Under the pieces are notes generated by a model, which had not been told where the DNA came from, ran no database searches, and was given only the letters and a program-made list of their open reading frames with translations. 64,000 nt of DNA from a virus: positions 1 to 64,000 of the IMG/VR virus record IMGVR_UViG_3300044701_000569; one strand, written 5' to 3'. This document shows positions 11,373-23,669 of this stretch, piece after piece. Position 1 is the stretch's first letter. Each line of letters begins with the position of its first letter. The translations under genes were made by a program, and so were the position numbers.

Positions 11373-11425
11373 CTGTCAACAACCTGGGGCGAGGATCCAA
11401 AAGATTCTAGGAAAAACACTCGACC

Positions 11426-11662: not shown

Positions 11663-11690
11663 TTGACATTTGGGTGCTGTCGTGTATAAT
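11663..11690 (+). promoter_or_regulatory. Array promoter P1
   Basis: TTGACA (11663-11668), 16 nt, TATAAT (11685-11690). Core identical to P2. Drives the 53-aa gene at 11719. Confidence 0.85.
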
Positions 11691-11718
11691 AGAGACTTAG
11701 TTAGACAATTGAGGAGCC

Positions 11719-11880
11719 ATGATGCCTAAATTTTATTACACACAGACTGTGACATATACCTTACAGGTTGACGCAGACACAGCAGAAGCAGCAGACGAGA
11801 TTGCTGGAATGACCGATGTAAACTCTGCGGGAGTTAATGCCACCTACGAGGGCTGGGAAGAAGACGGTTACGCAGAATAA
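11719..11880 (+). CDS. Small acidic protein, unknown function
   Basis: 53 aa. Begins MMPKFYYTQTVTYTLQVDAD, then Ala/Glu-rich and ends GWEEDGYAE. GAGGAG lies just upstream of a double ATG (11719 or 11722). Its own promoter P1 and a stop just before P2 make it the first gene of the array. No family recognised. Confidence 0.65.
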   Translation: MMPKFYYTQTVTYTLQVDADTAEAADEIAGMTDVNSAGVNATYEGWEEDGYAE

Positions 11881-11885
11881 TTTGG

Positions 11886-11913
11886 TTGACATTTGGGTGC
11901 TGTCGTGTATAAT
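11886..11913 (+). promoter_or_regulatory. Array promoter P2
   Basis: TTGACA (11886-11891), 16 nt, TATAAT (11908-11913). Identical core to P1, 223 bp away. Confidence 0.85.
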
Positions 11914-11943
11914 ACTAGTATGTTCAACGGAGAGGGCACTAAA

Positions 11944-12186
11944 ATGGACTATGACATCGAGTTTATTAATACTACCGACTCAACTGTAGACTATAGCGAG
12001 CGAGCTATAGCAGAGTTCGAGAGGGGCATGGGGGATCGTATTGAGGTGTATACAGAGCAGTTCGAAAGCGACTGCGGGTTAGAACTGTGCGACGCAGACG
12101 ACATCGGCGGGCTCATTGTATACAGTGCAGAGGGAGCTCTGCGAGCAGTATACGACTATGAGAACTTCTGCGGGTGGCTCGTTTAA
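11944..12186 (+). CDS. Acidic small protein, unknown function
   Basis: 80 aa, MDYDIEFINTTDSTVDYSER, strongly acidic with two Cys in CGLELCDADD. The ATG at 11944 is chosen because GAGGGCA lies 5 nt before it; an in-frame ATG at 11920 sits at the expected transcription start and is less likely. A terminator hairpin follows immediately. Function unknown. Confidence 0.65.
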   Translation: MDYDIEFINTTDSTVDYSERAIAEFERGMGDRIEVYTEQFESDCGLELCDADDIGGLIVYSAEGALRAVYDYENFCGWLV

Positions 12187-12200
12187 ACGGGTGCAGAGGG

Positions 12201-12227
12201 GTGTGGCATAATAGCCACACTCTTTTT
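12201..12227 (+). terminator. Intrinsic terminator, GTGTGGC hairpin family
   Basis: GTGTGGC, 6-nt loop, GCCACAC (12201-12220), then TCTTTTT. Confidence 0.8.
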
Positions 12228-12229
12228 GG

Positions 12230-12257
12230 TTGACACGGTGCCAGAATCGTGTATAAT
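12230..12257 (+). promoter_or_regulatory. Array promoter P3
   Basis: TTGACA (12230-12235), 16 nt, TATAAT (12252-12257). ACACG and CGTGT form a dyad across the spacer. Confidence 0.85.
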
Positions 12258-12287
12258 AAGAACATAGGGCAACAGAAAGAGGGTGTT

Positions 12288-12545
12288 ATGGCAAAGACTT
12301 ATCGTTTCGTAGGGGTAAGCAACCTTAACGGTCGCTGGGCTGTTCGCTATGCCAACGAGCGGACTCGTGCGCGGGTTCTGCAGAAGAACGGGCATACGGA
12401 CGTGAAGCTGTGGGATTTGAAGGAAGCTCTGCGAGCAGAAGACCTCGTGGACGAGCTGCTCAACAAGGTTGGGCGTGGTGAGATTCTGGGCTCTGCTCGT
12501 GAAGCTGTCCTGGACGAAGCTCGCAGAATCGGCTTTGCGGTCTAA
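12288..12545 (+). CDS. Small protein, paralog of the gene at 13475
   Basis: 85 aa. KTYRFVGVSNLNGRWAVRYA and VLQKNGHTDVKLWDL align with KTFTIAGTSSLNGKVKFRFA and VLTRNGHTGIKLYEL of the protein at 13475-13765, so the two are a tandem duplication separated by one gene. A beta-rich N-terminal domain is followed by a helical tail. GAGGG precedes the ATG. Function unknown. Confidence 0.7.
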   Translation: MAKTYRFVGVSNLNGRWAVRYANERTRARVLQKNGHTDVKLWDLKEALRAEDLVDELLNKVGRGEILGSAREAVLDEARRIGFAV

Positions 12546-12553
12546 AAAAGAGG

Positions 12554-12581
12554 TTGACATTTGGGATCTTGGTGCTATACT
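12554..12581 (+). promoter_or_regulatory. Array promoter P4
   Basis: TTGACA (12554-12559), 16 nt, TATACT (12576-12581), GGTGC just before the -10 (second sub-type of the array). Confidence 0.8.
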
Positions 12582-12616
12582 AAGAGCATAGGGCAAACGA
12601 ACTGAGAGGGCAAACG

Positions 12617-13342
12617 ATGTTCAAACTGTTATCAACAGCGAATCCAAAAATCCAAAAAGGTACCAAGGAAGGCTATCTCAGCTTCATCCTGCACCTTGCT
12701 CCTGCTGATTTGAGCGGGCGTGAAGTCTGCGCCAAGCGGACCGCGGGTTGCACGGCAGCATGTCTCAACACCGCAGGGCGTGGTGGCATGTTCCGCAAGG
12801 GCGAGAACACCAACGTTATTCAAAAGGCACGTATTCGCAAGACCAAGTACTTCTTTGAGAATCGTGAAGCTTTCATGAGCGATCTTGTAGAAGACATCAT
12901 GCGAGCTGTGAACTATGCACGCCGCAAGGGCTTGACTCCCGTGTTTCGTTTGAATGGTACTAGTGACCTTGCTTGGGAGAAGTACCCAGTTCCCAACATG
13001 GGCAAGAACATCTTTGACACGTTCAGCACTCTTCAGTTCTACGACTACACCAAGATCCTGGGCCGTAAGACGAAGGATATTGACAATTACCACTTGACAT
13101 TCTCAGCCGCGGACGGTAACGACGCAGATGTTGAGCGGGCTGTGGCTCAGGGCATGAATGTCGCTGTGGTGTTTGATCGTCTGCCCGAGAATTATATGGG
13201 CAAGACTGTATTCAACGCAGACGATACGGATCTGCGCTTTTTGGATCCTAAGGGCGTGGTGCTTGGACTCAAAGCCAAGGGCCGTGCTAAGAAGGACACT
13301 TCGGGCTTCGTGCGCCGAGTGATTCCCCTGAGTGTTGCATAA
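12617..13342 (+). CDS. Conserved phage protein with clustered cysteines, unknown function
   Basis: 241 aa. I recognise this protein type from many unrelated phages but know no function. Near residue 38 there is a Cys cluster (CAKRTAGCTAACLNTAGRGG) followed by conserved RKTKYFF, FRLNGTSDLAWEK, QFYDYTK, NYHLTFS, VAVVFD and a final FLDPKGVVLGLKAKGRAKKD. The Cys cluster may bind metal. It could be a nucleotide- or RNA-processing enzyme, but this is unproven. GAGGGCA lies before the ATG. Confidence 0.75.
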   Translation: MFKLLSTANPKIQKGTKEGYLSFILHLAPADLSGREVCAKRTAGCTAACLNTAGRGGMFRKGENTNVIQKARIRKTKYFFENREAFMSDLVEDIMRAVNYARRKGLTPVFRLNGTSDLAWEKYPVPNMGKNIFDTFSTLQFYDYTKILGRKTKDIDNYHLTFSAADGNDADVERAVAQGMNVAVVFDRLPENYMGKTVFNADDTDLRFLDPKGVVLGLKAKGRAKKDTSGFVRRVIPLSVA

Positions 13343-13385
13343 GTGCCACACTTTGGGGGTGGGCAATGGTGCCCAAAATATATGG

Positions 13386-13413
13386 TTGACACAATCCAAA
13401 AACCATGTATAAT
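13386..13413 (+). promoter_or_regulatory. Array promoter P5
   Basis: TTGACA (13386-13391), 16 nt with CCAAAAA in the centre, TATAAT (13408-13413). The leader is longer (61 nt) and lacks the usual box. Confidence 0.85.
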
Positions 13414-13474
13414 TTGAATATGAGCTGCGGGAACAGGTTCCAAAGCCATAAACTATGCACAAGGAGCATAAGAA

Positions 13475-13765
13475 ATGTCTAAGACGTTTACAATCGCTGG
13501 TACTTCCAGCCTCAATGGTAAGGTGAAGTTTCGTTTCGCTAACGGCACGATCAAGCATCGTGAGCAGGTGTTGACCCGCAACGGTCACACCGGGATCAAG
13601 CTCTATGAGCTGCCCTCTGCTATGGACAAGGACGCTGCTCGCTCCTTTGTCGAGAGCCAGGCTATCATGGCTCCCACTGTAACGGCTGAGGCTGTAGTGG
13701 CTGCAAAGCCCGCTCGAGCTCCAAAGGTCACAGTGCCTGCGGACGCAGAAGACGCTCTCATGTAA
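13475..13765 (+). CDS. Small protein, paralog of the gene at 12288
   Basis: 96 aa. The first 50 residues match the protein at 12288-12545; the tail is different, Ala/Pro/Lys-rich (VAAKPARAPKVTVPAD) and ends acidic, like a flexible linker. AAGGAG precedes the ATG. Followed by a strong terminator. Function unknown; a nucleic-acid-binding beta domain is possible. Confidence 0.7.
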   Translation: MSKTFTIAGTSSLNGKVKFRFANGTIKHREQVLTRNGHTGIKLYELPSAMDKDAARSFVESQAIMAPTVTAEAVVAAKPARAPKVTVPADAEDALM

Positions 13766-13776
13766 AGAGCAGTGGG

Positions 13777-13802
13777 GTGTGGCAGCAATGCCACACTCTT
13801 TT
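13777..13802 (+). terminator. Intrinsic terminator, GTGTGGC hairpin family
   Basis: GTGTGGCA, loop GCAA, TGCCACAC (13777-13796), then TCTTTT. Confidence 0.8.
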
Positions 13803-13819
13803 ATAATGGCATCTTTTGG

Positions 13820-13847
13820 TTGACAATCTGCCCAAAGGTGCTATTAT
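13820..13847 (+). promoter_or_regulatory. Array promoter P6
   Basis: TTGACA (13820-13825), 16 nt, TATTAT (13842-13847) followed by ATA. Leader GTGTTCAACAAA is shared with P9. Confidence 0.8.
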
Positions 13848-13885
13848 ATAAGAGTGTTCAACAAACCATTGAGAGGGCAATCCAT

Positions 13886-14362
13886 ATGGAAACCGTTACA
13901 CTGCGGGGCGAAGACTTTCGTACAATCCACAACACGCTCTGCGAGCTGCGCGGCCTTGTAGAACGCATGACCCATTCGATCGTTAAGATCGATGACGTGC
14001 AGGACATCATCACCAAGTTCGAGTACGGGCTGAAGGACGCCTACGATCAGGACAGTTCAGCCTTTGATCGCAAGATGGACCACTACAGTGCTGTCAAAGA
14101 AGCAGAAAGCTTTCGCACAGTATGGAGCATCTTCACAGTGGAAGACCTGTACGAAGAGCATCCCTACAAGGACGCAGACACCATTGTCTACGAGAACCAC
14201 TGGGGCACCAGTCCCATCCGTGTAAGCTTCAAGGGCCGTCGTTGGGTAGATCTGTATGCTGCTGCGAACGCTGCGATCTGCACTTCGGGCGATGCTCATC
14301 ACATCTTTATCGAGCAGTTTACCCCCTTTGGGCGCGATCTAGTGCTGCAAACGGGCAGCTAA
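13886..14362 (+). CDS. Phage protein, unknown function
   Basis: 158 aa. Helical first half (FRTIHNTLCELRGLVERMTH), mixed second half with GRRWVDLYAAANAAICTSGD. The ATG at 13886 is preceded by GAGGGCA; the frame stays open further upstream through the promoter, which is not meaningful. No family recognised. Served by its own promoter P6. Confidence 0.65.
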   Translation: METVTLRGEDFRTIHNTLCELRGLVERMTHSIVKIDDVQDIITKFEYGLKDAYDQDSSAFDRKMDHYSAVKEAESFRTVWSIFTVEDLYEEHPYKDADTIVYENHWGTSPIRVSFKGRRWVDLYAAANAAICTSGDAHHIFIEQFTPFGRDLVLQTGS

Positions 14363-14392
14363 GTCGTTGATCTAGAACAGGAATCTTTTTGG

Positions 14393-14420
14393 TTGACAAA
14401 TGGATTCCTGATGCTATAAT
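14393..14420 (+). promoter_or_regulatory. Array promoter P7
   Basis: TTGACA (14393-14398), 16 nt, TATAAT (14415-14420), then the common leader box ATAGGG. Confidence 0.85.
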
Positions 14421-14454
14421 AAGAACATAGGGTAAACAGAAAGAGGGTAATCAA

Positions 14455-14697
14455 ATGTCAAAAGTAGAACTTCGCAGCTTCGAAATCACTCCTGCAGAGC
14501 GTCGCCTCGCTGAGATCGGGCGCGGCATGATGGATGCTGCTGTGACCTGCAAGGACGATGCAGAGAGCAATCATCTTGCAGAGTGCGGTCACAAGCTCTG
14601 CGCTTTCAATGCGCCATATGGCACCACAATCAAGGACTTCACCGCTGAAGACAATGCGCTGATCCGTAAGTTCCTGGAGGGTGGTTATGCTTCTTAA
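14455..14697 (+). CDS. Small helical protein, unknown function
   Basis: 80 aa, MSKVELRSFEITPAERRLAE, Ala/Glu-rich and probably all helical, with three Cys. GAGGG before the ATG. The 3' end overlaps the next gene by 11 nt. Function unknown. Confidence 0.65.
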   Translation: MSKVELRSFEITPAERRLAEIGRGMMDAAVTCKDDAESNHLAECGHKLCAFNAPYGTTIKDFTAEDNALIRKFLEGGYAS

Positions 14698-14899
14698 GTA
14701 TTGTGACTTCATCGCAGATCGTGTGCGAAAAGGACTCGTGAACTCGATGAACGACAGTCTAGAGCCTGTGCGTCTCAAGGACGTGGGCTCTGTAAAATGG
14801 GATTTGGGTCCGCAGGGTGAGTTTCGCTCAACCGCTAAGAGTCTTTTGGTTGAGGACGCCTACGGATCCAAATATAAGATCACGATTGAAGAAATTTAA
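14687..14899 (+). CDS. Small protein coupled to the upstream gene
   Basis: 70 aa from an ATG inside the end of the upstream gene, with GGAGGG just before it; a GTG two codons earlier is an alternative. MLLKYCDFIADRVRKGL is helical, the rest beta-like. No promoter of its own, so it shares P7. Function unknown. Confidence 0.6.
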   Translation: MLLKYCDFIADRVRKGLVNSMNDSLEPVRLKDVGSVKWDLGPQGEFRSTAKSLLVEDAYGSKYKITIEEI

Positions 14900-14908
14900 T
14901 CTTAGGGG

Positions 14909-14937
14909 TTGACAACCCCTAACTGTGGCCTTATAAT
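14909..14937 (+). promoter_or_regulatory. Array promoter P8
   Basis: TTGACA (14909-14914), 17 nt (the only array member with 17), TATAAT (14932-14937). GGGGTTGACAACCCC makes a dyad around the -35. Confidence 0.85.
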
Positions 14938-14998
14938 AAGACATACTGAGGGAATAGGTATTCCCGAAGGTACTTCTACAATAAAAGGAAAAGGCATA

Positions 14999-15280
14999 AT
15001 GAAGCGATTTAATCCAGAAACCAAGACCTTCAAGGTCTTCAATGCACTCTACAACGGTGACAAGCTCACAGCGGCTCAGGCTGCAAAGCGTTTTGGCGTT
15101 GGCAATCTTGCTGCTGAAGCAAGCCGCATCCGCCAGTCAGGCTATGCTGTCTATGCTAACCAGCGTACCGCAGGCAACGGTGTAACCGTTACTGAGTATG
15201 AGATGGGTCAGCCCAGCCGCGAGATCGTTGCTCTCGGCTACAAGGCCAAGGCAGCAGGTCTTACCCTAGACACCATCTAA
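14999..15280 (+). CDS. Helix-turn-helix-like DNA-binding protein
   Basis: 93 aa. KLTAAQAAKRFGVGNLAAEA followed by SRIRQSGYAVYANQR fits a helix-turn-helix with a beta-wing, as in small winged-helix phage regulators. I recall near-identical proteins in marine T4-like phages. It may regulate early transcription; the palindromic promoter spacers nearby would be natural targets, which is inference. AAAGGAAAAGG lies before the ATG at 14999. Confidence 0.7.
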   Translation: MKRFNPETKTFKVFNALYNGDKLTAAQAAKRFGVGNLAAEASRIRQSGYAVYANQRTAGNGVTVTEYEMGQPSREIVALGYKAKAAGLTLDTI

Positions 15281-15289
15281 GGTGCTCAA

Positions 15290-15320
15290 GAGTGTGGCAG
15301 AAATGCCACACTCTTATATA
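15290..15320 (+). terminator. Terminator-like hairpin, GTGTGGC family
   Basis: GAGTGTGGCA, loop GAAA, TGCCACACTC (15290-15313): a perfect 10-bp stem with a tetraloop, followed by TTATATA (a weak U tract). Confidence 0.7.
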
Positions 15321-15336
15321 ATAGCATCATTTATGG

Positions 15337-15364
15337 TTGACAAGCGCCTAGATGATGCTATTAT
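15337..15364 (+). promoter_or_regulatory. Array promoter P9
   Basis: TTGACA (15337-15342), 16 nt, TATTAT (15359-15364). Leader like P6. Confidence 0.8.
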
Positions 15365-15397
15365 ATAAGAGTGTTCAACAAAGACAGAGGGCAAACA

Positions 15398-15688
15398 ATG
15401 TCAAATCGTGTTACAAGGGCAGTAGAACAGATCTACCAAATGGACGCCAACGAACTGAATCAAGTCGTTGAAGCAATCAAACTCAAACGCACCAGCCTAG
15501 CCCGTCAGGCTACTCGCTCCGTGATCATCGGCGATACTGTGAGCTTCGAAGCTCGCGGACGCATGGTTGTGGGCAAGGTCACCAAGGTGAACATCAAGAC
15601 GCTCACAGTTCGTGAAGACCGCAATGGTTCAGTCACCAACTGGAAGGTGTCCGCTACACTCGTCAACAAAGTAACCGTAGGAGCCTAA
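15398..15688 (+). CDS. Small basic protein, unknown function
   Basis: 96 aa. Helical N-terminus, then a compact beta domain (VIIGDTVSFEARGRMVVGKV) that resembles a small SH3- or KOW-like barrel, which often binds nucleic acid or protein. GAGGGCA before the ATG. The stop is 1 nt from the next gene. Function unknown. Confidence 0.65.
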   Translation: MSNRVTRAVEQIYQMDANELNQVVEAIKLKRTSLARQATRSVIIGDTVSFEARGRMVVGKVTKVNIKTLTVREDRNGSVTNWKVSATLVNKVTVGA

Positions 15689-15689
15689 T

Positions 15690-16256
15690 ATGCCTAATTG
15701 GTGCAATAATTCCGTTACCATCACTCACACTGACACTGCCAAGATGCAGGCCCTTGTGGCCGCTGTCAACGAAGGCAAGTTCTGCGATCATGTGATTCCT
15801 ACTCCGCAGGATCTCACTGACACTGTGTCAGGATCCGTGCCTGAGGGGCCTGAGCGTGAAGCTCATGAAGCTCAGATGAAGCGTAACCTAGAGCTCTACG
15901 GAGCCAAGGACTGGTATGACTATCAGGTTTCCAACTGGGGGACCAAGTGGGATGTTCAGCCCTACGACACTGTTGAGCTGGAAGACGGCACTGTCTCCTT
16001 TGGCTTTGACAGTGCTTGGAGCCCGCCCATTGGAGTCTACACCATGCTGGTTGAACAAGGGTTCACTGTCAAGGCTTTCTACTACGAGCCAGGCATGTGC
16101 TTTGCTGGTGTATGGGAAGACGGCATTGATGAGTTCTACGAGCTGGACGGTATGTCTTCTGATGAAGTAGCCAACACGATCGATCGCGAGTTGGACGAGG
16201 TCATGGGCATCTCAGAGAGCATGGCTGAATACGAAGAAGAAAACATCGAAGAATAA
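15690..16256 (+). CDS. Api92-like (DUF1281-type) protein
   Basis: 188 aa. Begins MPNWCNNSVTITH and has the characteristic YQVSNWGTKWDVQPYD segment and later FDSAWSPPIGVYTML, matching phage and plasmid Api92-like proteins with a ferredoxin-like fold. Function of the family is unknown. Very acidic C-terminus. Follows the previous gene by 1 nt behind GTAGGAG, so it shares P9. Confidence 0.8.
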   Translation: MPNWCNNSVTITHTDTAKMQALVAAVNEGKFCDHVIPTPQDLTDTVSGSVPEGPEREAHEAQMKRNLELYGAKDWYDYQVSNWGTKWDVQPYDTVELEDGTVSFGFDSAWSPPIGVYTMLVEQGFTVKAFYYEPGMCFAGVWEDGIDEFYELDGMSSDEVANTIDRELDEVMGISESMAEYEEENIEE

Positions 16257-16259
16257 TGG

Positions 16260-16287
16260 TTGACAGCACCCTACGGGGTGCTATAAT
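16260..16287 (+). promoter_or_regulatory. Array promoter P10
   Basis: TTGACA (16260-16265), 16 nt, TATAAT (16282-16287). AGCACCC and GGGTGCT form a 7-bp dyad across the spacer. Confidence 0.85.
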
Positions 16288-16314
16288 GAGCATATGAACA
16301 GCAAAGAGGGTATC

Positions 16315-16527
16315 ATGTCAAAAGAGATCTTGTTTGAAGACCTTGCAGAACAGCTGGCGCTGCTCAGCGACGAGGATCGTGCAGAGTTTGCTCAGTTCCT
16401 TGTAGAGAACTATCTACACGCCGCAGCGGGCTTGGCTACAGACATTGGACACGCTGAGATGGATCTAGAGTATTCTGCTCACGACACTTTTGAAGCGTAT
16501 CAAAGACGCGAGAACATATTCACATAA
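16315..16527 (+). CDS. Small acidic protein, unknown function
   Basis: 70 aa, MSKEILFEDLAEQLALLSDE, acidic and helical. The ATG at 16315 has GAGGG before it; an ATG at 16294 lies at the transcription start and is less likely. The tRNA genes follow at once. Function unknown. Confidence 0.6.
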   Translation: MSKEILFEDLAEQLALLSDEDRAEFAQFLVENYLHAAAGLATDIGHAEMDLEYSAHDTFEAYQRRENIFT

Positions 16528-16544
16528 AGAGTAAATAACATCAC

Positions 16545-16621
16545 GCTCCTATAGCTCAATTGGTTAGAGCACCGGACTCATAATCCGTAGGTTCACAGTT
16601 CAAGTCTGTGTGGGAGCACCA
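16545..16621 (+). tRNA. tRNA with anticodon CAU (Met or Ile2)
   Basis: 77 nt. Acceptor GCTCCTA pairs with TGGGAGC, D-arm GCTC...GAGC, anticodon loop CTCATAA (anticodon CAU), T-loop TTCAAGT, encoded ACCA end. The loop sequence alone cannot separate elongator Met from lysidine-modified Ile(AUA). The 27-43 pair is mismatched (C-U), otherwise the cloverleaf is good. Confidence 0.93.
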
Positions 16622-16624
16622 AAT

Positions 16625-16707
16625 GTCCGCGTGGTGGAATAGGTAGACACAAGAGACTTAAAATCTCTCGCTTAGGCGTGCCGGTTCGAGTCCGGCCGCG
16701 GATACCA
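16625..16707 (+). tRNA. tRNA-Leu(UAA)
   Basis: 83 nt class II tRNA. Acceptor GTCCGCG with CGCGGAT, anticodon stem AGAGA/TCTCT with loop CTTAAAA (anticodon UAA), a long variable arm, T-loop TTCGAGT and encoded CCA. Confidence 0.94.
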
Positions 16708-16785
16708 AGGCTAAGTATATGAACAAGACCAGTCAAGGTTATAAGAAGTATATACAAAAGATGAACTATCAACAGTTTATCAAAT

Positions 16786-16863
16786 CTGCCCGTAGCTCAG
16801 CAGGATTAGAGCAACAGCCTTCTAAGCTGTGGGTCGGGGGTTCGAATCCCTCCGGGCAGGCCA
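16786..16863 (+). tRNA. tRNA-Arg(UCU)
   Basis: 78 nt. Acceptor CTGCCCG with CGGGCAG, anticodon stem ACAGC/GCTGT with loop CTTCTAA (anticodon UCU, reads AGA), T-stem GGGGG/CCCTC, discriminator G and encoded CCA. Confidence 0.94.
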
Positions 16864-16890
16864 TTACCCCCAAAGCCAAACAGTAATACC

Positions 16891-17070
16891 ATGCCTCGCA
16901 TACCAACTAGTCGGATTCCTGACGACTGGGACTCCTACGACGATGATGAGCTAGATCTTAACCTAGAAGAGGAACGGGAGCGCAGAGAGCGCAAACGAAC
17001 CAAGCAAGACGCTGATGAGGACCAACAGCGCAGGGATTCGTGGCGCAAAAGCAACACCAAACGCAGCTAA
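16891..17070 (+). CDS. Small highly charged protein, unknown function
   Basis: 59 aa, MPRIPTSRIPDDWDSYDDDE, then an alternating Glu/Arg helix (EEERERRERKR). It begins 27 nt after the last tRNA and is followed by a terminator, so it may be expressed by read-through from P10. No RBS is obvious. Confidence 0.5.
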   Translation: MPRIPTSRIPDDWDSYDDDELDLNLEEERERRERKRTKQDADEDQQRRDSWRKSNTKRS

Positions 17071-17076
17071 GTCATT

Positions 17077-17098
17077 GATTCTAATAGAGAATCTTTTT
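17077..17098 (+). terminator. Intrinsic terminator
   Basis: GATTCT, loop AATAG, AGAATC (17077-17093) and TTTTT. It overlaps a copy of the AATCAATGACTTA motif and ends the tRNA block. Confidence 0.7.
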
Positions 17099-17100
17099 GG

Positions 17101-17128
17101 TTGACAAGATCCCGTGTTCGTGTATAAT
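17101..17128 (+). promoter_or_regulatory. Array promoter P11
   Basis: TTGACA (17101-17106), 16 nt, TATAAT (17123-17128), then AAGAACATAGGGCAAACA. Confidence 0.87.
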
Positions 17129-17161
17129 AAGAACATAGGGCAAACAAACAAAGAGGGCAAT

Positions 17162-17440
17162 ATGATAGAACGCAAAGACTACACCGTAGAGGTTTACAAG
17201 GCAGACAAGCGCACCAAAGCAGGTGAGCGCCTTGTGCTCAAGCAGGATCACACAGACATCGATCTGCAGACACTGCGTCATCTTTATCTTACCACTTGGT
17301 TCAAGAACGACGGCTACCGCCATGAGTTCCACGAGACTTATGTAACCCGCACCAACATGATGGGTGGTAAGGAGTATCAGGAACGCTATGACACTCCTCG
17401 CTACTGCTCACCCAGCTCTGAAGCCTACTGGAGCATGTGA
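17162..17440 (+). CDS. Small basic protein, unknown function
   Basis: 92 aa, MIERKDYTVEVYKADKRTKA, beta-type N-terminus, many Lys/Arg and aromatic residues. GAGGGCA precedes the ATG. Function unknown. The next gene starts immediately after its stop. Confidence 0.65.
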   Translation: MIERKDYTVEVYKADKRTKAGERLVLKQDHTDIDLQTLRHLYLTTWFKNDGYRHEFHETYVTRTNMMGGKEYQERYDTPRYCSPSSEAYWSM

Positions 17441-17441
17441 T

Positions 17442-17669
17442 TTGAGGACTGATGACATCCTACAATGGACAGGGGCGGTGTTCATCATCGCTGGACACGC
17501 CCTCAACGCCGTGGGCCCGGGTGCCCACCCGTGGAATATCCTGGCTTTCTTCCTGGGTACTATAGCATTCTTTATCTGGACTGTCCGTGTTGCAAATAAG
17601 CCGCAGATGGCTGTGAATGTGGTAGCCCTAGGGCTAGGAGCACTGGGTCTAGTAAAATCAATGACTTAA
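17442..17669 (+). CDS. Small inner-membrane protein
   Basis: 75 aa from a TTG start 2 nt after the previous stop, with GGAG 10 nt upstream. Two or three hydrophobic segments (WTGAVFIIAGHALNAVG, NILAFFLGTIAFFIW, VNVVALGLGALGLV). The frame has no better ATG at the right place; an ATG at 17364 inside the upstream gene is unlikely. The stop lies inside an AATCAATGACTTA motif. Function unknown. Confidence 0.6.
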   Translation: MRTDDILQWTGAVFIIAGHALNAVGPGAHPWNILAFFLGTIAFFIWTVRVANKPQMAVNVVALGLGALGLVKSMT

Positions 17670-17686
17670 CAGACCAAAAAAGTTTC

Positions 17687-17742
17687 AAAAAAGTGGTTGA
17701 CATTTGGGCGCACCCGTGTATAATAAGAACATAGGGCAAACA
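17687..17742. repeat. 56-bp direct repeat, copy 1 (promoter P12)
   Basis: Identical to 19970-20025, including -35, spacer, -10 and leader. This is a recent duplication or a conserved cassette. Confidence 0.85.
17697..17724 (+). promoter_or_regulatory. Array promoter P12
   Basis: TTGACA (17697-17702), 16 nt, TATAAT (17719-17724). Identical to P15. Confidence 0.87.
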
Positions 17743-17755
17743 GAAAGGGCATACA

Positions 17756-17974
17756 ATGATCAAGCAAGTCGCAAAGGTAGCTGTAATTGGTACGCTGATG
17801 TTCAGCGGTACGCTGTTCGCAATGGACTACGCTTTCAGCATTCCAATTGTCAACAAGAGCTTCAGCACCAACCAATGCGTGTCTGTGGATAACTATCCGG
17901 GCTTAGTGTTTGGCAAGGCTGTATACTCCTGCGAGAACATGCCTGAGAAGTATGAGCTGAACTGGGTAAAATAA
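17756..17974 (+). CDS. Small secreted or membrane-anchored protein
   Basis: 72 aa with an N-terminal hydrophobic segment (VAVIGTLMFSGTLFAMDYAF) after a basic start, and two Cys in the periplasmic part (NQCVSV, YSCENM) that may pair. AAAGGGCA before the ATG. An early membrane protein could act in superinfection exclusion; inference. Confidence 0.65.
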   Translation: MIKQVAKVAVIGTLMFSGTLFAMDYAFSIPIVNKSFSTNQCVSVDNYPGLVFGKAVYSCENMPEKYELNWVK

Positions 17975-17977
17975 TGG

Positions 17978-18005
17978 TTGACAGCGCCTGCAGAGGTGCT
18001 ATACT
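17978..18005 (+). promoter_or_regulatory. Array promoter P13
   Basis: TTGACA (17978-17983), 16 nt, TATACT (18000-18005). AGCGCCT and AGGTGCT form an imperfect dyad. Confidence 0.83.
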
Positions 18006-18042
18006 AAGAACATAGGGCAAACAAACAGAGAGGGCAAAGCAA

Positions 18043-18510
18043 ATGGCAACACGAAGCACAATCGCAATGGAATTCGCAGACGGTACTGTCCAGCAGATCT
18101 ACTGCCACTGGGACGGCTACCTTTCCAATAACGGGCAGATCCTGCTCCAACACTATTCAGATCCTTTCAAAGTTCGTGAGTTGATCGACGGCGGCGCTGT
18201 TAGTTCGCTACGCCCTGAGATTGGCACCAAGCATGCGTTCAGCCAGTTTGAGGCTAAGGGCCAACCCTACGACGCAAAGCTCTACGAAGACATGACTACG
18301 TTTTACGCTCGCGATCGTGGCGAGGACTTGGTCAAAAACAAGTTCAAGGACTTTGCGGACTACCGCAAGAACGCACAGAGCGAGGAATACAATTATATCC
18401 TGCGCCGTGACGGCAATTGGTACGTGGAGTTCTACGGCGAGTTTGACGGCTTGCTGACTAAGGCTATTATGGACGAACAGGATCGCGAAGCACAAGAGGA
18501 GATAGCGTAA
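18043..18510 (+). CDS. Conserved phage protein, unknown function
   Basis: 155 aa. The start MATRSTIAMEFADGTVQQIY and CHWDGYLSNNGQILLQHYSD belong to a protein type I recall from many phages. The C-terminus (YNYILRRDGNWYVEF) is beta-rich. Enzymatic motifs are absent; function unknown. GAGGGCA precedes the ATG; the stop overlaps the next ATG (TAATG). Confidence 0.75.
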   Translation: MATRSTIAMEFADGTVQQIYCHWDGYLSNNGQILLQHYSDPFKVRELIDGGAVSSLRPEIGTKHAFSQFEAKGQPYDAKLYEDMTTFYARDRGEDLVKNKFKDFADYRKNAQSEEYNYILRRDGNWYVEFYGEFDGLLTKAIMDEQDREAQEEIA

Positions 18511-18683
18511 TGGCTATCTGTCCAGAGTGCATGGAAGAGAAGAGCATCCTTGCTAGTCGCTGTCCTCACTGCACTCAGGACATTGGTTATGGTAGACAGA
18601 TCCTTGCGATGTGTGTATACTACGGAGCAATCGTGTTGACTATGACATTTTTGGTTGTGCTGCTCAAGGCATGTAGTGGTTGA
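18510..18683 (+). CDS. Zinc-ribbon membrane microprotein
   Basis: 57 aa, MAICPECMEEKSILASRCPH then CTQD: two CxxC knuckles (Cys 4/7 and 18/21) form a zinc ribbon, followed by a hydrophobic helix (YYGAIVLTMTFLVVLL). The ATG overlaps the previous stop, and its own TGA lies inside the -35 element of P14. Such a membrane-tethered zinc ribbon could bind protein or RNA; unknown. Confidence 0.65.
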   Translation: MAICPECMEEKSILASRCPHCTQDIGYGRQILAMCVYYGAIVLTMTFLVVLLKACSG

Positions 18684-18707
18684 CAGCAGAGCTAGATCGT
18701 GTATAAT
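18680..18707 (+). promoter_or_regulatory. Array promoter P14
   Basis: TTGACA (18680-18685), 16 nt, TATAAT (18702-18707). The -35 contains the stop of the upstream gene. Confidence 0.85.
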
Positions 18708-18738
18708 AGTGAAACATTCAACAGAAAGGGCAAAGGGC

Positions 18739-19761
18739 ATGAGTAAGACAATCCGTTTTATCGAAGGTACGTATAAGATTCGCGGCAACGACACTTCAGT
18801 TGCTGGATTGGTATTTCCTCTAGTAGAGGAATTCAAGGTAGGTACGGGCGGTGGCTACGTCACAGTGGATGGTAGTTCTGTGGCAGGCTTCCCGGATCGC
18901 AACATTAAGATCCGTTGCGAAGGTGCCGAGTCATACGAAACAGTGGACTCGAAGGTAGCCACCGCCCAGGCCAAGAGCCGTGTTGAGACTGATGAGCAGA
19001 TCATTGAACGACTGCGCGATCGTTTCAGCATGCTGGAGGAGATGACCAAAGCCTGTAAGAAGGGCGATGTGCGAGCTATGATCGTATCAGGTCCTCCGGG
19101 CGTTGGTAAGAGTCACGGTGTTGAGAAGGTGTTGGGCAAGCACGACCTGCTCGCTGACATCGCTAACGACTCAAAGTTCAAGAAGTACGAAGTGGTCAAG
19201 GGTGCTATGAGCGCCATTGGACTCTACTGCAAGCTGTTTCAGTATGCGGACAAGGATAACGTTATCGTGTTCGATGACTGCGATAGTGTGCTGTTGGACG
19301 ACCTCAGCTTGAACATTCTCAAGGCTGCTCTAGACTCTAAGAAGTCGCGTCGCATTCACTGGAACACCGACAGCTATAAACTGCGCAACGAAGGTGTGCC
19401 GGACAGCTTCGAGTTCAAGGGCTCAGCTATCTTTATCACCAACATCAAGTTCGATAACGTTAAGAGCAAGAAGCTCCGTGATCACCTTGAAGCTCTTGAG
19501 AGCCGTTGCCACTACATTGACCTGACCATTGATACAGAGCGTGAGAAGATGCTCCGCATCAAGCAGATCACTAAAGACGGCATGCTCTCTGAGTACGGCC
19601 TTAGTGAGGAAGTCCAAGACGAAATTGTGGACTTCATCGATCTTAACAAGAAGCGACTACGGGAACTGTCATTGCGTACAGTACTAAAGGTTGCCGATCT
19701 AGCCAAAGCATTCCCCTCTAAGTGGGAAGCTATGGCGGAGAATACTGTGATGAAGCGGTAA
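18739..19761 (+). CDS. AAA+ ATPase
   Basis: 340 aa. Walker A GPPGVGKS (118-125), Walker B VIVFDDCDS (175-183), a sensor-1-like FITNIKF after it and a sensor-2-like Arg-rich C-terminal region. The N-terminal 100 residues are unassigned. The architecture fits clamp-loader, helicase-loader or initiator-type AAA+ proteins. With a DnaA-box cluster 7 kb upstream, a role at that origin is attractive but unproven. It is by far the largest gene of the promoter array. AAAGGGCA lies before the ATG at 18739; the frame stays open upstream of the promoter without meaning. Confidence 0.85.
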   Translation: MSKTIRFIEGTYKIRGNDTSVAGLVFPLVEEFKVGTGGGYVTVDGSSVAGFPDRNIKIRCEGAESYETVDSKVATAQAKSRVETDEQIIERLRDRFSMLEEMTKACKKGDVRAMIVSGPPGVGKSHGVEKVLGKHDLLADIANDSKFKKYEVVKGAMSAIGLYCKLFQYADKDNVIVFDDCDSVLLDDLSLNILKAALDSKKSRRIHWNTDSYKLRNEGVPDSFEFKGSAIFITNIKFDNVKSKKLRDHLEALESRCHYIDLTIDTEREKMLRIKQITKDGMLSEYGLSEEVQDEIVDFIDLNKKRLRELSLRTVLKVADLAKAFPSKWEAMAENTVMKR

Positions 19762-19906
19762 GCCCTCCCGCTCACAGTACGGGCTCAGCAAGCCCTAGGA
19801 CATGCCCTCGTCCACCCGCTGAGCCCTAAAGAGCAGACAATCGTGTGCCCTCACGCTCTGCTCTTTGCGCCCGGACAGTGTGCCCTCGCTGTCCGGGTAT
19901 TTTTTT
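19762..19906 (+). ncRNA. Triple stem-loop RNA element with exposed UGCCCU(C) (putative regulatory RNA)
   Basis: Starts right after the ATPase stop. Hairpin 1: GGGCTCAGC (19781-19789) with GCTGAGCCC (19818-19826), inner GGAC/GTCC, loop ATGCCCTC. Hairpin 2: AAAGAGCAGA (19828-19837) with TCTGCTCTTT (19857-19866), inner CGTG/CACG, loop TGCCCT. Hairpin 3: CCCGGACAG (19870-19878) with CTGTCCGGG (19889-19897), loop TGTGCCCTCG, then a T tract: an intrinsic terminator. A fourth GCCCTC is at 19762-19767. UGCCCU(C) is complementary to AGGGCA/GAGGGCA in the array leaders. It may be processed from the ATPase mRNA or act in its 3' UTR. Confidence 0.6.
19870..19906 (+). terminator. Strong intrinsic terminator (third stem-loop)
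   Basis: 9-bp GC-rich stem, 10-nt loop, seven T after a short TA. Confidence 0.88.
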
Positions 19907-19969
19907 CTCTGCAAAATCAATGACTTACAGCATAGGCTAAGTCATTGAAATCATTGAGGATTTTTTCTA

Positions 19970-20025
19970 AAAAAAGTGGTTGACATTTGGGCGCACCCGT
20001 GTATAATAAGAACATAGGGCAAACA
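19970..20025. repeat. 56-bp direct repeat, copy 2 (promoter P15)
   Basis: Identical to 17687-17742, 2283 bp away. Both copies lie just downstream of AATCAATGACTTA motifs. Confidence 0.85.
19980..20007 (+). promoter_or_regulatory. Array promoter P15
   Basis: TTGACA (19980-19985), 16 nt, TATAAT (20002-20007). Identical to P12. Confidence 0.87.
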
Positions 20026-20040
20026 AGAGGAGCAGCGTAC

Positions 20041-20232
20041 ATGGGCTACAGGATCATCAACGTTACACCAGAGTTCCGCGCACAATGGGAACCCAGAGTA
20101 GGTTTGGAAGGTCCGTTCTTCTACGAAGGCAACCGTGTGCTCTACTATGATGCCCGCGAAGGCAAGTACCTTAATCCCCAGACAGATATGTACCTCACCT
20201 ACGAAGAGTATGATGAGATCGCAAAGCAATAA
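20041..20232 (+). CDS. Small protein, unknown function
   Basis: 63 aa, MGYRIINVTPEFRAQWEPRV, aromatic-rich, with an acidic end. The ATG has GAGGAGC upstream. First gene after the triple stem-loop RNA. Function unknown. Confidence 0.6.
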   Translation: MGYRIINVTPEFRAQWEPRVGLEGPFFYEGNRVLYYDAREGKYLNPQTDMYLTYEEYDEIAKQ

Positions 20233-20238
20233 AAGTGG

Positions 20239-20266
20239 TTGACACGGATCCAAAACCGTGTATAAT
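20239..20266 (+). promoter_or_regulatory. Array promoter P16
   Basis: TTGACA (20239-20244), 16 nt, TATAAT (20261-20266). Perfect 6-bp dyad ACACGG / CCGTGT. Confidence 0.87.
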
Positions 20267-20301
20267 AAGAACATAGGGCAAACAAACAAGAGGGCAAACA
20301 A

Positions 20302-20637
20302 ATGGCAATGATCGTAATCCGCACCCAGTACATGGAAAACTATGGCGCCCACGATTGGGACGGCACTGGTGAGTGCCCGCAGTACTGGAAGTTCAAGGGC
20401 GGCTCGGAGTACAAGATCACCAACATCGACATCAACGGTGATCTGCAGGCTGCGGTGCGAGCTGCGGCTGTGGAACGCGACAACGACTACTGCCGCGAAT
20501 ACATCCTGGATTGGAGTGTGGAGGGGGACGACTACCTCAGCCAGTTCGAGCGTCAACAGCTGGAGTACGAGGGCAAGATTGACTGCCTTGAGCCCACTAT
20601 GGGCTATCGTGAGCTGCTGGAGACTCAGCCCGCATAA
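20302..20637 (+). CDS. Conserved phage protein, unknown function
   Basis: 111 aa, MIVIRTQYMENYGAHDWDGT then GECPQYWKFKGGSEYK: a sequence type I recall from several phages, without function. Acidic C-terminal helix. GAGGGCA before the ATG; the ATG at 20302 is followed by a second at 20308. A plus-strand shadow frame of 110 aa overlaps and is rejected. Confidence 0.72.
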   Translation: MAMIVIRTQYMENYGAHDWDGTGECPQYWKFKGGSEYKITNIDINGDLQAAVRAAAVERDNDYCREYILDWSVEGDDYLSQFERQQLEYEGKIDCLEPTMGYRELLETQPA

Positions 20638-20647
20638 AAAGAATTGG

Positions 20648-20675
20648 TTGACAGGAACCCAAAATCCTGTATAAT
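20648..20675 (+). promoter_or_regulatory. Array promoter P17
   Basis: TTGACA (20648-20653), 16 nt, TATAAT (20670-20675). Dyad ACAGGA / TCCTGT. Identical core to P21. Confidence 0.87.
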
Positions 20676-20709
20676 AAGAACATAGGGCAACAGAACAGAG
20701 GAGCACAGT

Positions 20710-21105
20710 ATGGATTGGGACAACATGATCAACACGCAAGAGGGATTGGCTCGCATGGTGGGCAAGACCTTTGTGAGCGTGAGCGGTGGCCGAGGCGACG
20801 GCGAGATGGAGTTCCGTACTGCTGACGGTGAGATCTTCCTGTTCAGCCACTACCAGGACTGCTGCGAATCCGTTAGTATCGAGGACGTCTGCGGTGACAT
20901 CCGGGACTTGGTGGGCGAGCCCATCCTCCTAGCTGAAGAAGTGTCGGGAGAAGCTCCTGCATCCGATGAGGATCACTGGGGCTCACAGACCTGGACCTTC
21001 TACAAGTTCGCTACCCGCAAGGGCTATGTGGACGTTCGCTGGCTGGGTGAATCCAACGGATATTACTCAGAGTCAGTGGATATGTACTATCAGGGTGTGG
21101 CATAA
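20710..21105 (+). CDS. DUF7448-like phage protein
   Basis: 131 aa. The segment FLFSHYQDCCESVSIEDVCG followed by DLVGEPILLAEE is characteristic of this phage protein type. The C-terminus WTFYKFATRKGYVDVRWLGE is beta-rich. Function unknown. The stop codon lies in the loop of a GTGTGGC-family hairpin. Confidence 0.72.
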   Translation: MDWDNMINTQEGLARMVGKTFVSVSGGRGDGEMEFRTADGEIFLFSHYQDCCESVSIEDVCGDIRDLVGEPILLAEEVSGEAPASDEDHWGSQTWTFYKFATRKGYVDVRWLGESNGYYSESVDMYYQGVA

Positions 21106-21115
21106 AAGCCACACC
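21094..21115 (+). terminator. GTGTGGC-family hairpin (no T tract)
   Basis: GGTGTGGC (21094-21101), loop ATAAAA containing the upstream stop codon, GCCACACC (21108-21115). Followed by AAAAG, so termination is doubtful; it may be a processing or protein-binding site. Confidence 0.5.
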
Positions 21116-21123
21116 AAAAGTGG

Positions 21124-21151
21124 TTGACAGATTGGCACTAGGTGCTATACT
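21124..21151 (+). promoter_or_regulatory. Array promoter P18
   Basis: TTGACA (21124-21129), 16 nt, TATACT (21146-21151). Inner dyad GCAC / GTGC. Confidence 0.83.
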
Positions 21152-21183
21152 AAGAACATAGGGCAAACAGAAAGGGCAATTAA

Positions 21184-21435
21184 ATGGACAAAGAACAGTT
21201 TGAACGTGATCCCCGGGACTATGCGCTGGACATGGTCAATGAGGGAATGGTCGATCCTATGCTGCTGCTCCAAGCAGCTCTGAATTGGATGAGCCACGAT
21301 GAGGTCCGCGAGATGTTGGACGCTAACGAACTCAGCCCGCGCTTCTCAGAGGATGAAGACGATGAGGATGAGGACGAAGAGTGGACTCCGGACAATGCAG
21401 ACTTCAACGATCCCGGCTCACGCCACCACTACTAA
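21184..21435 (+). CDS. Acidic small protein, unknown function
   Basis: 83 aa. Helical first half (DPMLLLQAALNWMSHDEVRE), then a run of Asp/Glu (about 58-68). AAAGGGCA before the ATG. Could be a DNA mimic or a binding partner of basic proteins; no evidence beyond charge. Confidence 0.62.
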   Translation: MDKEQFERDPRDYALDMVNEGMVDPMLLLQAALNWMSHDEVREMLDANELSPRFSEDEDDEDEDEEWTPDNADFNDPGSRHHY

Positions 21436-21441
21436 GGAGCG

Positions 21442-21669
21442 ATGATGATTAGAGAGCATATTCAAATGGAAACACGCCACGGCAGTCCTTATGATCGTGG
21501 TTCAGCAGACTCATACTACCGCAGGAAGCGCAGTCCTCACTACTATGTGGGCGACACTGGTACTTCAGAGCGTGTCACCCTCAAGGACATGACACCCGAT
21601 GAGGTCGAAGCCTATCACGCAGGCTACGATGACAACGAAGAAGCTGACAACCACAAGGAGTGGTTGTGA
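21442..21669 (+). CDS. Small polar protein, unknown function
   Basis: 75 aa, Tyr/Asp/Arg-rich (GSPYDRGSADSYYRRKRSP), start at a double ATG behind AAGGAG. Its TGA overlaps the next ATG. Function unknown. Confidence 0.6.
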   Translation: MMIREHIQMETRHGSPYDRGSADSYYRRKRSPHYYVGDTGTSERVTLKDMTPDEVEAYHAGYDDNEEADNHKEWL

Positions 21670-21773
21670 TGACTAGATTCGCAGAGTTCATCCTAGCTAC
21701 CTTTGCGGGTAGGATCGTACTGTTTGGAATGATTGTGGCCAGTCTTTGGACCTATCGTCTAATTTCTGGTTGA
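21669..21773 (+). CDS. 34-aa membrane microprotein
   Basis: MTRFAEFILATFAGRIVLFG and a second hydrophobic part (MIVASLWTYRLIS). The ATG overlaps the previous stop (TGATG), and its TGA lies inside the -35 of P19, exactly as for the zinc-ribbon microprotein at 18510. This repeated arrangement argues for a real gene. Confidence 0.5.
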   Translation: MTRFAEFILATFAGRIVLFGMIVASLWTYRLISG

Positions 21774-21797
21774 CAAGAGTTCAAAAGGTGCTATACT
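21770..21797 (+). promoter_or_regulatory. Array promoter P19
   Basis: TTGACA (21770-21775), 16 nt, TATACT (21792-21797). Confidence 0.83.
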
Positions 21798-21830
21798 AAG
21801 AACATAGGGCAAACACAAAGGGCAAACACC

Positions 21831-22157
21831 ATGCAAGACATTTTCAGCTTCATCGAAGACACCAATGACCAACTGCGCCGCTTGGTGCATGAAATGGAAT
21901 ACGTCCCTGCGGACAGCCTGGGCTTGGATCGTCGTGCCGCTTACCGCCTGTGGGTCAACGACGACTGCATCATCGTTGACAAGGGCAACGACCGCACCCT
22001 GCAGTACTACGGTGGGTTCGAGTATGTGGACAAGGAGTACCGCATTGAGATGGGTGACTATGTGATCTACCTCTCAGATGACGATCGTGTACAGGGACAC
22101 ATTGACACCCACTATCAGCGCGATGAAGAGGGTGTTTACACGGACGAAGACGCTTAA
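21831..22157 (+). CDS. Small acidic protein, unknown function
   Basis: 108 aa. Helical start (MQDIFSFIEDTNDQLRRLVH), then a Tyr/Asp-rich beta part (YYGGFEYVDKEYRIEMGDYV). AAAGGGCA before the ATG. Ends 12 nt before the next gene, which has no promoter of its own. Confidence 0.62.
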   Translation: MQDIFSFIEDTNDQLRRLVHEMEYVPADSLGLDRRAAYRLWVNDDCIIVDKGNDRTLQYYGGFEYVDKEYRIEMGDYVIYLSDDDRVQGHIDTHYQRDEEGVYTDEDA

Positions 22158-22169
22158 CCAAGGAACGAT

Positions 22170-22433
22170 ATGAATACAGTGATGATGACAATGGTGCGCC
22201 CCACGGTGCTGTTTGATGTGCTGAATCCACAGCACCGTGAGTGGGCCTATCAGTTCTTAGAACAGAAGAGCTGGCGTGACTGCCCAGTGATGTTCGCTCT
22301 CCCCCAAAGCGAGCCCTCGGTGTACACCATGATCACACGTGAGCTGAGCCACTATTACCTAAAGCAGGAGTTCCAACAGAAGCCCTGCCCTGTTGTAAAA
22401 ATACAACAGAAGTTTAAGGTAAAAAATGGTTGA
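22170..22433 (+). CDS. Small protein, unknown function
   Basis: 87 aa, MNTVMMTMVRPTVLFDVLNP, mixed fold, basic C-terminus. AAGGAACG before the ATG. Close to the stop the DNA has an 8-bp inverted repeat (CTGTTGTA / TACAACAG, 22390-22409). Its TGA lies in the -35 of P20. Confidence 0.6.
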   Translation: MNTVMMTMVRPTVLFDVLNPQHREWAYQFLEQKSWRDCPVMFALPQSEPSVYTMITRELSHYYLKQEFQQKPCPVVKIQQKFKVKNG

Positions 22434-22457
22434 CAGGGTTCCAAAATCCTGTATAAT
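22430..22457 (+). promoter_or_regulatory. Array promoter P20
   Basis: TTGACA (22430-22435), 16 nt, TATAAT (22452-22457). Dyad ACAGG / CCTGT. Confidence 0.86.
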
Positions 22458-22504
22458 TAAGATGTAGGGCAAAAAAACTGTAACACGTAACACTAGGGGG
22501 CTAT

Positions 22505-22888
22505 ATGACAAAAGTAAATTATGACCGTTTCGCCAGCTTCGATCTCAACGAGTGCTGTGACTACTTTGACTCAGAGAAGCAGAGCAACTGGAAGAAGATC
22601 GGCAAGTTCATCGTAGCCGATGGACAGGAGTACGTAGAGGTCATGGAGCAAGAGTTTGACTTTGAGGACACTACAGACTCAGAGTACTCAGCATTTGAAG
22701 CGGGCGTCAAGTATGCGCTCACCAAGATGAACATTGCCCTGGAGGCCGCGGGCATAGACGTACAGGTCTGCGAAGTGGACCTCGTAGAGAGCATGGGCTT
22801 TATGATGGTGCGTTGCGATGACGAGCCCGAGGACTTTGTAAAGCGAGCTCTCAAGAAGCCCGTGCCCCAGGTAGAGAGCTGGGTCTAA
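22505..22888 (+). CDS. Acidic protein, unknown function
   Basis: 127 aa, MTKVNYDRFASFDLNECCDY, acidic overall with four Cys. Helical middle (GVKYALTKMNIALEAAGIDV). The leader ends in AGGGGGC. A GTGTGGC-family hairpin follows the stop. Function unknown. Confidence 0.63.
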   Translation: MTKVNYDRFASFDLNECCDYFDSEKQSNWKKIGKFIVADGQEYVEVMEQEFDFEDTTDSEYSAFEAGVKYALTKMNIALEAAGIDVQVCEVDLVESMGFMMVRCDDEPEDFVKRALKKPVPQVESWV

Positions 22889-22896
22889 GAGCCCGG

Positions 22897-22918
22897 GGTG
22901 TGGCATAAAAGCCACACC
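22897..22918 (+). terminator. GTGTGGC-family hairpin (no T tract)
   Basis: GGTGTGGC (22897-22904), loop ATAAAA, GCCACACC (22911-22918). Identical to the hairpin at 21094-21115. Confidence 0.5.
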
Positions 22919-22926
22919 AAAAGTGG

Positions 22927-22954
22927 TTGACAGGAACCCAAAATCCTGTATAAT
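22927..22954 (+). promoter_or_regulatory. Array promoter P21
   Basis: TTGACA (22927-22932), 16 nt, TATAAT (22949-22954). Identical core to P17. Confidence 0.87.
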
Positions 22955-22988
22955 AAGATACATAGGGCAAACACAAAGGGCAAAGCAA

Positions 22989-23261
22989 ATGAACATTTCC
23001 ACTCTTGAGCAGTACGTAGATCAGAAGAACCGCTGGGGCGCAATCTTTGGCTCCAAACCGTTGAGTCTGCTGAACAGCCAGGACCGCCAGGCTATCGCAG
23101 ACTCACTGGACTCAGACCTAAGCCCAGAGAATGTGAGCTGTGACGGAGAGATCCAAGGACGAGCTCTGATCCAGAAGCGCAACTATCTGATCCGTGCCGC
23201 ACGTGAACTCCACAGCATTGACCCTTCAGTTCGTATGTACGAAGCTGAGGGTTGGTTCTAA
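22989..23261 (+). CDS. Small protein, unknown function
   Basis: 90 aa, MNISTLEQYVDQKNRWGAIF, helical. The ATG at 22989 has AAAGGGCA upstream; the frame is open through the promoter without meaning. Function unknown. Confidence 0.62.
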   Translation: MNISTLEQYVDQKNRWGAIFGSKPLSLLNSQDRQAIADSLDSDLSPENVSCDGEIQGRALIQKRNYLIRAARELHSIDPSVRMYEAEGWF

Positions 23262-23268
23262 CTAGGGG

Positions 23269-23296
23269 TTGACACGAGTCCAAACTCGTGTATAAT
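23269..23296 (+). promoter_or_regulatory. Array promoter P22
   Basis: TTGACA (23269-23274), 16 nt, TATAAT (23291-23296). Perfect 7-bp dyad ACACGAG / CTCGTGT. Last promoter of the array. Confidence 0.88.
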
Positions 23297-23339
23297 TAGA
23301 ACTGTAGGGCAAACAAACACACACGAAAGGGCAAACACT

Positions 23340-23669
23340 ATGATTACAGCACAGCAGATTGAGCAGGGCATCACGCTCGCACAGCAGGCTTCACAGCAGT
23401 TCTTCCAGCAGAAGCTGGGTGGACAGGACCAGTACGCCTGTGGCTTTGCTTGGGTAGATGTGTACGTGGATCGCACTAACTCTAAGCAGGCCAAGGAACT
23501 CTTAGCCGCAGGCTTCCGCAAGGACTACAAGCCCAAGTGCCTCTCAATGTGGAACCCAGGTGGCTTGGGTGTGCAGAACGTGGACACCAAAGAAGCGGGT
23601 GCGGACGCTATGGCACAGTACCTCAGAGCACTGGGCTTGAATGCCTACGCAGGCTCACGCTTAGATTAA
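23340..23669 (+). CDS. Conserved phage protein, unknown function
   Basis: 109 aa. Gln-rich helical start (ITLAQQASQQFFQQK), then CGFAWVDVYVDRTNSKQAKE and a PGGLGVQNVDTKEAGADAMA segment ending in YAGSRLD. I recall the latter half from other phages. Function unknown. Last gene of the array, followed by a strong terminator. Confidence 0.7.
   Translation: MITAQQIEQGITLAQQASQQFFQQKLGGQDQYACGFAWVDVYVDRTNSKQAKELLAAGFRKDYKPKCLSMWNPGGLGVQNVDTKEAGADAMAQYLRALGLNAYAGSRLD

Follow-up and report, generated by a model that had tools for sequence, protein, structure and literature searches.

A run of three hairpins directly downstream of an AAA+ ATPase gene in a large phage exposes loops that are complementary to the ribosome-binding sites of the surrounding array of about 20 small genes, of which the ATPase gene is one. 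We consider it probable, with roughly three chances in four, that these hairpins form a multivalent anti-ribosome-site RNA in the 3′ untranslated region (3′UTR) of the ATPase mRNA, which pairs with the messages of the array and most likely represses their translation. Base pairing between the loops and the array leaders, as proposed in a first-pass annotation of this DNA, is strongly supported, and loops and leaders shift jointly in homologous phages. The regulatory RNAs known from phages mostly have a single message or a few as targets, whereas here one RNA appears to be matched to an entire early promoter array. This match was re-coded across lineages, with the stems of the hairpins diverging freely. 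The window, i.e., the whole 64,000-nt stretch that was analyzed, is part of a phage record of 357,559 bases, which was covered by pattern searches and by two stretches.

The hairpin locus and its transcript

The features considered here are the following (window coordinates).

11663..23342, (+) strand: promoter array, the presumed targets, in which about 20 small genes each have their own near-consensus sigma70 promoter
18680..18707, (+) strand: sigma70-type promoter, TTGACA-16-TATAAT, with 12/12 consensus matches, driving the ATPase/hairpin-RNA transcript
18739..19761, (+) strand: AAA+ ATPase gene, 340 aa, phrog_1250, with the hairpins in its probable 3′UTR
19781..19826, (+) strand: hairpin 1, a 9-bp outer and a 4-bp inner stem with the 5′ internal loop AAGCCCTA and the end loop ATGCCCTC
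19827..19867, (+) strand: hairpin 2, an 11-bp stem and a 5-bp inner stem with the end loop within GTGTGCCCTCACGC
19869..19906, (+) strand: hairpin 3, a 12-bp stem (19869–19898) with the hexaloop TGCCCT, followed by ATTTTTTT with a T-run

Folding of positions 19762–19912 yielded −65.1 kcal/mol, compared with −42.5 ± 3.6 kcal/mol for shuffled sequences (z = −6.24), and the fold bears out the three consecutive hairpins previously noted after the ATPase gene (19781–19898), albeit with stems of 9–12 bp rather than the 9–10 bp first given. The first-pass annotation had also placed an exposed TGCCCT or TGCCCTC in every hairpin. GCCCU(C) is indeed present in each, with an unpaired probability of GCCCU ranging from 0.89 to 1.00 over all hairpin loops (0.89 and 0.97 for the two copies in hairpin 1), but the inner stem of hairpin 2 leaves the UG of UGCCCUC about half paired, and the exposed core there is CCCU and not the full UGCCCU. 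Two further details of the first reading were confirmed, namely that GCCCUA in the internal loop of hairpin 1 fits the ATAGGGCAAACA box found in many leaders and that the last hairpin, with its 12-bp stem and T-run, is an intrinsic terminator (terminator-like site). The pattern TGTGCCCTCR occurs at a single site in the whole 357,559-base record, which is the hairpin locus. An Rfam scan of the window returned only tRNAs at the gathering score and nothing near a family threshold at 19700–20000.

The last promoter-like site ahead of the hairpins is the one at 18680..18707, with none from the ATPase start as far as the hairpins. The hairpin RNA is therefore most likely the 3′UTR, possibly in processed form, of the ATPase mRNA and not an sRNA with its own start. 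On this arrangement, the RNA would be produced with the ATPase message and could either work as part of it or be released from it by cleavage.

Complementarity of the loops to the array leaders

The ribosome-binding sites of the array leaders carry (G/A)AGGGCA, and many leaders also contain a ATAGGGCAAACA box upstream, near the leader 5′ end (eight exact boxes among the array leaders). We counted GAGGGCA ahead of the ATG in seven array genes and AAAGGGCA in six further array leaders, in agreement with the initial estimates of at least seven and at least six. The window contains 61 copies of AGGGCA, compared with 25.7 ± 4.7 expected, and they cluster before array start codons; the ATPase leader itself holds two copies of AGGGC (GAAAGGGCAAAGGGCATG). 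Some array leaders have a plain GAGGAGC instead of the AGGGCA form. In the same phage, (G/A)AGGGCA is mostly missing from late genes and from other sigma70 promoters; GAGGGCA was not seen at the start codons of minus-strand genes from 29 kb on or at the sigma70 promoters at 285–312 kb.

In a duplex-energy scan, which had been suggested as a check together with the first reading, the loops paired far better with the array leaders (n = 24; mean, −11.75 kcal/mol) than with late-gene leaders (n = 32; mean, −3.85 kcal/mol) or in the controls with shuffled loops (−8.03 ± 0.37 kcal/mol) and shuffled leaders (−6.44 ± 0.46 kcal/mol). The matches are short (6–8 nt), and in nearly all phages analyzed, L044 (described below) being an exception, they fall on the Shine-Dalgarno (SD) sequence a few nt ahead of the AUG. 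No Hfq gene was found in the phage record.

Joint change of loops and leaders in related phages

Relatives of the ATPase were collected from viral contigs, which are designated here by L-numbers. In clade A (~50 contigs), two to five hairpins lie 3′ of the ATPase gene, with unrelated stems, a constant GCCCUC loop, and usually a T-run at the end of the series. Taken together, the window and its relatives contain 95 distinct GCCCT-centred stems of ≥4 bp, which are unrelated to one another, while the loop core is constant. Terminal hairpins from 13 phages, pre-selected as paired so that only their pattern of change counts as evidence, showed compensatory changes in 7/8 pairs (39 such cells versus 12.1 in shuffles). 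Folding was more favorable for the (+) than for the (−) strand (Wilcoxon p 1.7e-5, with 64 GU pairs in 68 hairpins), which, together with the terminator, assigns the C-rich loops to the strand that is transcribed. We also observed that the U·G and then G-C pairs closing the loop of clade A terminal hairpins (19879–19888 in the window) are nearly invariant (12/13); leader pairing does not need this closure, which may point to an additional role of a protein or of a particular fold of the loop.

The loop sequence differs among lineages, and the leader motif differs with it. Clade A combines UGCCCUC loops with GAGGGCA leaders, whereas clade B (L121, L130, L134, L143, L145, L147, L148, L154, L156, L162, L165, L167, and L168), with hairpins 3′ of the same ATPase gene, combines UUCGCUCC loops with GGAGCGAA leaders, and a third set combines UUGCUCC loops with GGAGCAA leaders. 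A related group has a single hairpin, CCG-AUUCGCUCC-CGG, 3′ of a different gene ~0.8 kb on, and its leaders read GGAGCGA. L258 has UUGCUCC loops, with five copies spread over two separate hairpin RNAs (4330–4510 and 6500–6590), and GGAGCA in 16/21 leaders and GGAGCG in none. Likewise, L157 and L228 have a UUGCUCC loop (CUUGCUCC), and GGAGCA occurs in 7/16 leaders and GGAGCG in none, while L256 and L257, with a similar hairpin whose loop is AUCGCUCC (AAUCGCUCC), show GGAGCG (six leaders) and no GGAGCA. The mean longest Watson-Crick run between loops and leaders was 5.88/5.69 nt within the own clade, compared with 3.83/3.80 nt across clades and 4.30/4.05 nt for shuffled sequences.

We then placed RNA and leader labels, assigned by motif counts with leaders located by the promoter pattern, on a tree of 98 ATPases; for loci labelled "none", the first kilobase after the ATPase gene was examined. 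The joint labels comprised 42 A/GGGC, 22 B/GAGCG, 28 with neither, and 6 discordant cases, and two contigs nested in clade A (L040 and L169) have lost the leader motif as well as the array of hairpins. Independent change of loops and leaders in homologous phages had been named at the outset as the outcome that would speak against pairing; the homologues show joint change instead. The tree needs few changes (RNA label, 5; leader label, 7), and a sign test on independent pairs therefore has no power.

Several loci depart from the pattern. L131 and L230 pair a ..CGCUCC loop with GGAGCA leaders, so that the extension contains a C-A mismatch; L043 has the hairpins, but few of its leaders match them; L246 and L274 have a mixed loop/leader state; and in L132 and L140, whose leaders read GGAGCG, no loop was found within 1 kb. 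L044 differs in the location of the match. Its leaders (7593–12344) combine a plain AAGGAG SD with a TATAGGGCAAC box farther upstream, and the complement of this box, GUUGCCCU, is present in one loop of the RNA directly 3′ of the ATPase gene (end at 6984). The presumed pairing site in this phage has moved off the SD and onto the box, which is the best match in L044, and simple SD occlusion therefore does not fit there.

A strict scan for repeated loops returned few loci, and those with high leader matches all lay directly 3′ of the ATPase gene. A DNA search of phage isolates with the ATPase-hairpin region had no match, and the exact promoter-leader pattern was not found in viral contigs. Among isolates, PA5oct-like Pseudomonas phages come closest (45% identity for the ATPase and 56% for the helicase), and in a PA5oct-like genome the annotated gap after the ATPase gene is only ~44 bases, which leaves no room for such a hairpin array. 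As separate observations, many relatives have a different sequence in place of the ATAGGGCAAACA leader element (e.g., GTATATAACAGTTAG), and L052 and L053 carry another conserved long hairpin (GGTCCTCGTGCTA...TAGCACGAGGACC) directly 3′ of the ATPase gene, with no match to the leader SD.

A proposed antisense role and its alternatives

We propose that the three-hairpin 3′UTR of the early AAA+ ATPase mRNA probably works in trans as a multivalent antisense RNA, in which the UGCCCUC of each loop would pair with the extended SD, (G/A)AGGGCA, common to the array mRNAs. The loops would mask the SD and a few bases downstream, a position where pairing blocks the 30S subunit, and as early transcripts accumulate, the RNA would most likely reduce translation of the whole array. 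The ATPase mRNA would itself be among the repressed messages, providing feedback, and the outcome could be either gain control or an early-to-late shut-off. Repression of the array, including the ATPase feedback, is taken as the most likely effect, given this position and the precedent of NfeR1 from Sinorhizobium meliloti, whose redundant loop motifs were shown to silence targets by pairing at the ribosome-binding site (PMC10746234).

A real pairing need not be repressive. The loops could instead protect, anchor, or activate the array mRNAs, or join the 3′ and 5′ ends of the ATPase mRNA, and two observations are in line with this, namely that the L044 match involves not the SD but a box upstream of it (GUUGCCCU to AGGGCAAC) and that the ATPase leader has two motif copies. 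In nearly all other phages, however, the match lies on the SD, where the 30S subunit would be blocked, and the presence of the motif in ~20 leaders speaks against a purely cis role; we therefore regard non-repressive pairing as unlikely. Quite unlikely, in our estimate, is that a phage RNA-binding protein recognizes the loops, as a sponge or a processing signal, with the complementarity to leaders being coincidental or secondary. The nearly invariant U·G and G-C pairs at the base of the hexaloop do exceed what leader pairing needs, and multi-hairpin protein sponges such as CsrB and RsmZ exist. Yet the loop is the complement of the leader motif rather than the motif itself and would be no decoy for the same site, the loop classes CCGCCCUCA and AGCCCUCACG occur without the U·G/G-C closure, and protein binding alone does not predict the joint loop/leader change found in three sequence versions. 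Highly improbable is an account in which the motif is a DNA-level operator or reflects shared ancestry, with leaders copied from one cassette and the hairpins being ordinary terminators that acquired the reverse motif. The array promoters and leaders do show a clear likeness, the ATAGGGCAAACA box included, but ordinary terminators do not retain a loop while swapping the stem, and the non-terminating upstream hairpins have the same loop as the terminator. In relatives, moreover, loop and leader change in concert, and clade C has just one matching hairpin, located 3′ of a different gene and right before a second, ordinary hairpin.

Among known systems, the closest analogue to the proposed antisense RNA is alpha-r14 (NfeR1, or "cuckoo RNA") of alpha-rhizobia, which likewise consists of three hairpins, each with the same anti-SD motif and freely differing stems (PMC10746234). 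The phage RNA shares this trait of several hairpins with a constant loop and variable stems. The loop motifs differ (CCUCCUCCC in alpha-r14 versus UGCCCUC, UUCGCUCC, or UUGCUCC in the phages), and alpha-r14 is a bacterial sRNA (PMC10746234), whereas the phage RNA appears to be an early-mRNA 3′UTR with its last hairpin as the terminator. The targets also differ: those presumed for the phage RNA are the phage mRNAs of a single array, and their extended SD has changed in step with the loop. Membership in the alpha-r14/cuckoo family was ruled out, as the loops lack CCUCCUCCC and there is no Rfam family match. Complementarity is kept by joint change, as in base-pairing sRNAs generally, through few independent changes and with two mismatching loci.

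In Staphylococcus aureus RNAIII, exposed C-rich hairpin loops pair with the SD sequences of several mRNAs, and the phage loops resemble these exposed C-rich anti-SD loops; RNAIII differs in being a large RNA with a few chromosomal targets, and it is not known to have a dedicated regulon bearing a co-evolving motif. A sponge of the CsrB/RsmZ type was rejected as a classification, since the loops hold the reverse complement of the leader motif and not the target motif (GGA). In T4, RegA and RegB exert post-transcriptional control over many early phage messages at the translation start; they are proteins, in contrast to the RNA-based hairpin system, and searches of the genome for the RegA and RegB families gave no match, with the controls lacking signal too. 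The antisense RNAs c4 of P1/P7 and OOP and PreS of lambda are likewise phage-encoded and base-pairing, but their targets are mostly limited to one or a few messages of the phage or its host, and they lack a loop array fitted to a whole promoter array (PMC12197685). As far as the literature searched shows, a phage version in which a motif common to a whole promoter array is re-coded with the loops across lineages is new.

More tentatively, at not quite an even chance, each jumbo-phage lineage may have a private extended SD on its early mRNAs and a multi-loop RNA as its matching key, the two drifting together. If so, such an address-code RNA could silence the early genes of its own phage, or of a superinfecting sibling, while sparing host messages and late genes. 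The loop/ribosome-site pairs of different lineages represent a natural orthogonal set, and the proposed mechanism would explain, in a form open to direct test, how expression of dozens of early genes could be lowered at once in large phages. On the (−) strand of the window, between 29000 and 64000, several late genes are preceded by TAAATA-type motifs near the start codon (e.g., ATAAATAC and TAAATATTTGT), which resemble T4 late promoters.
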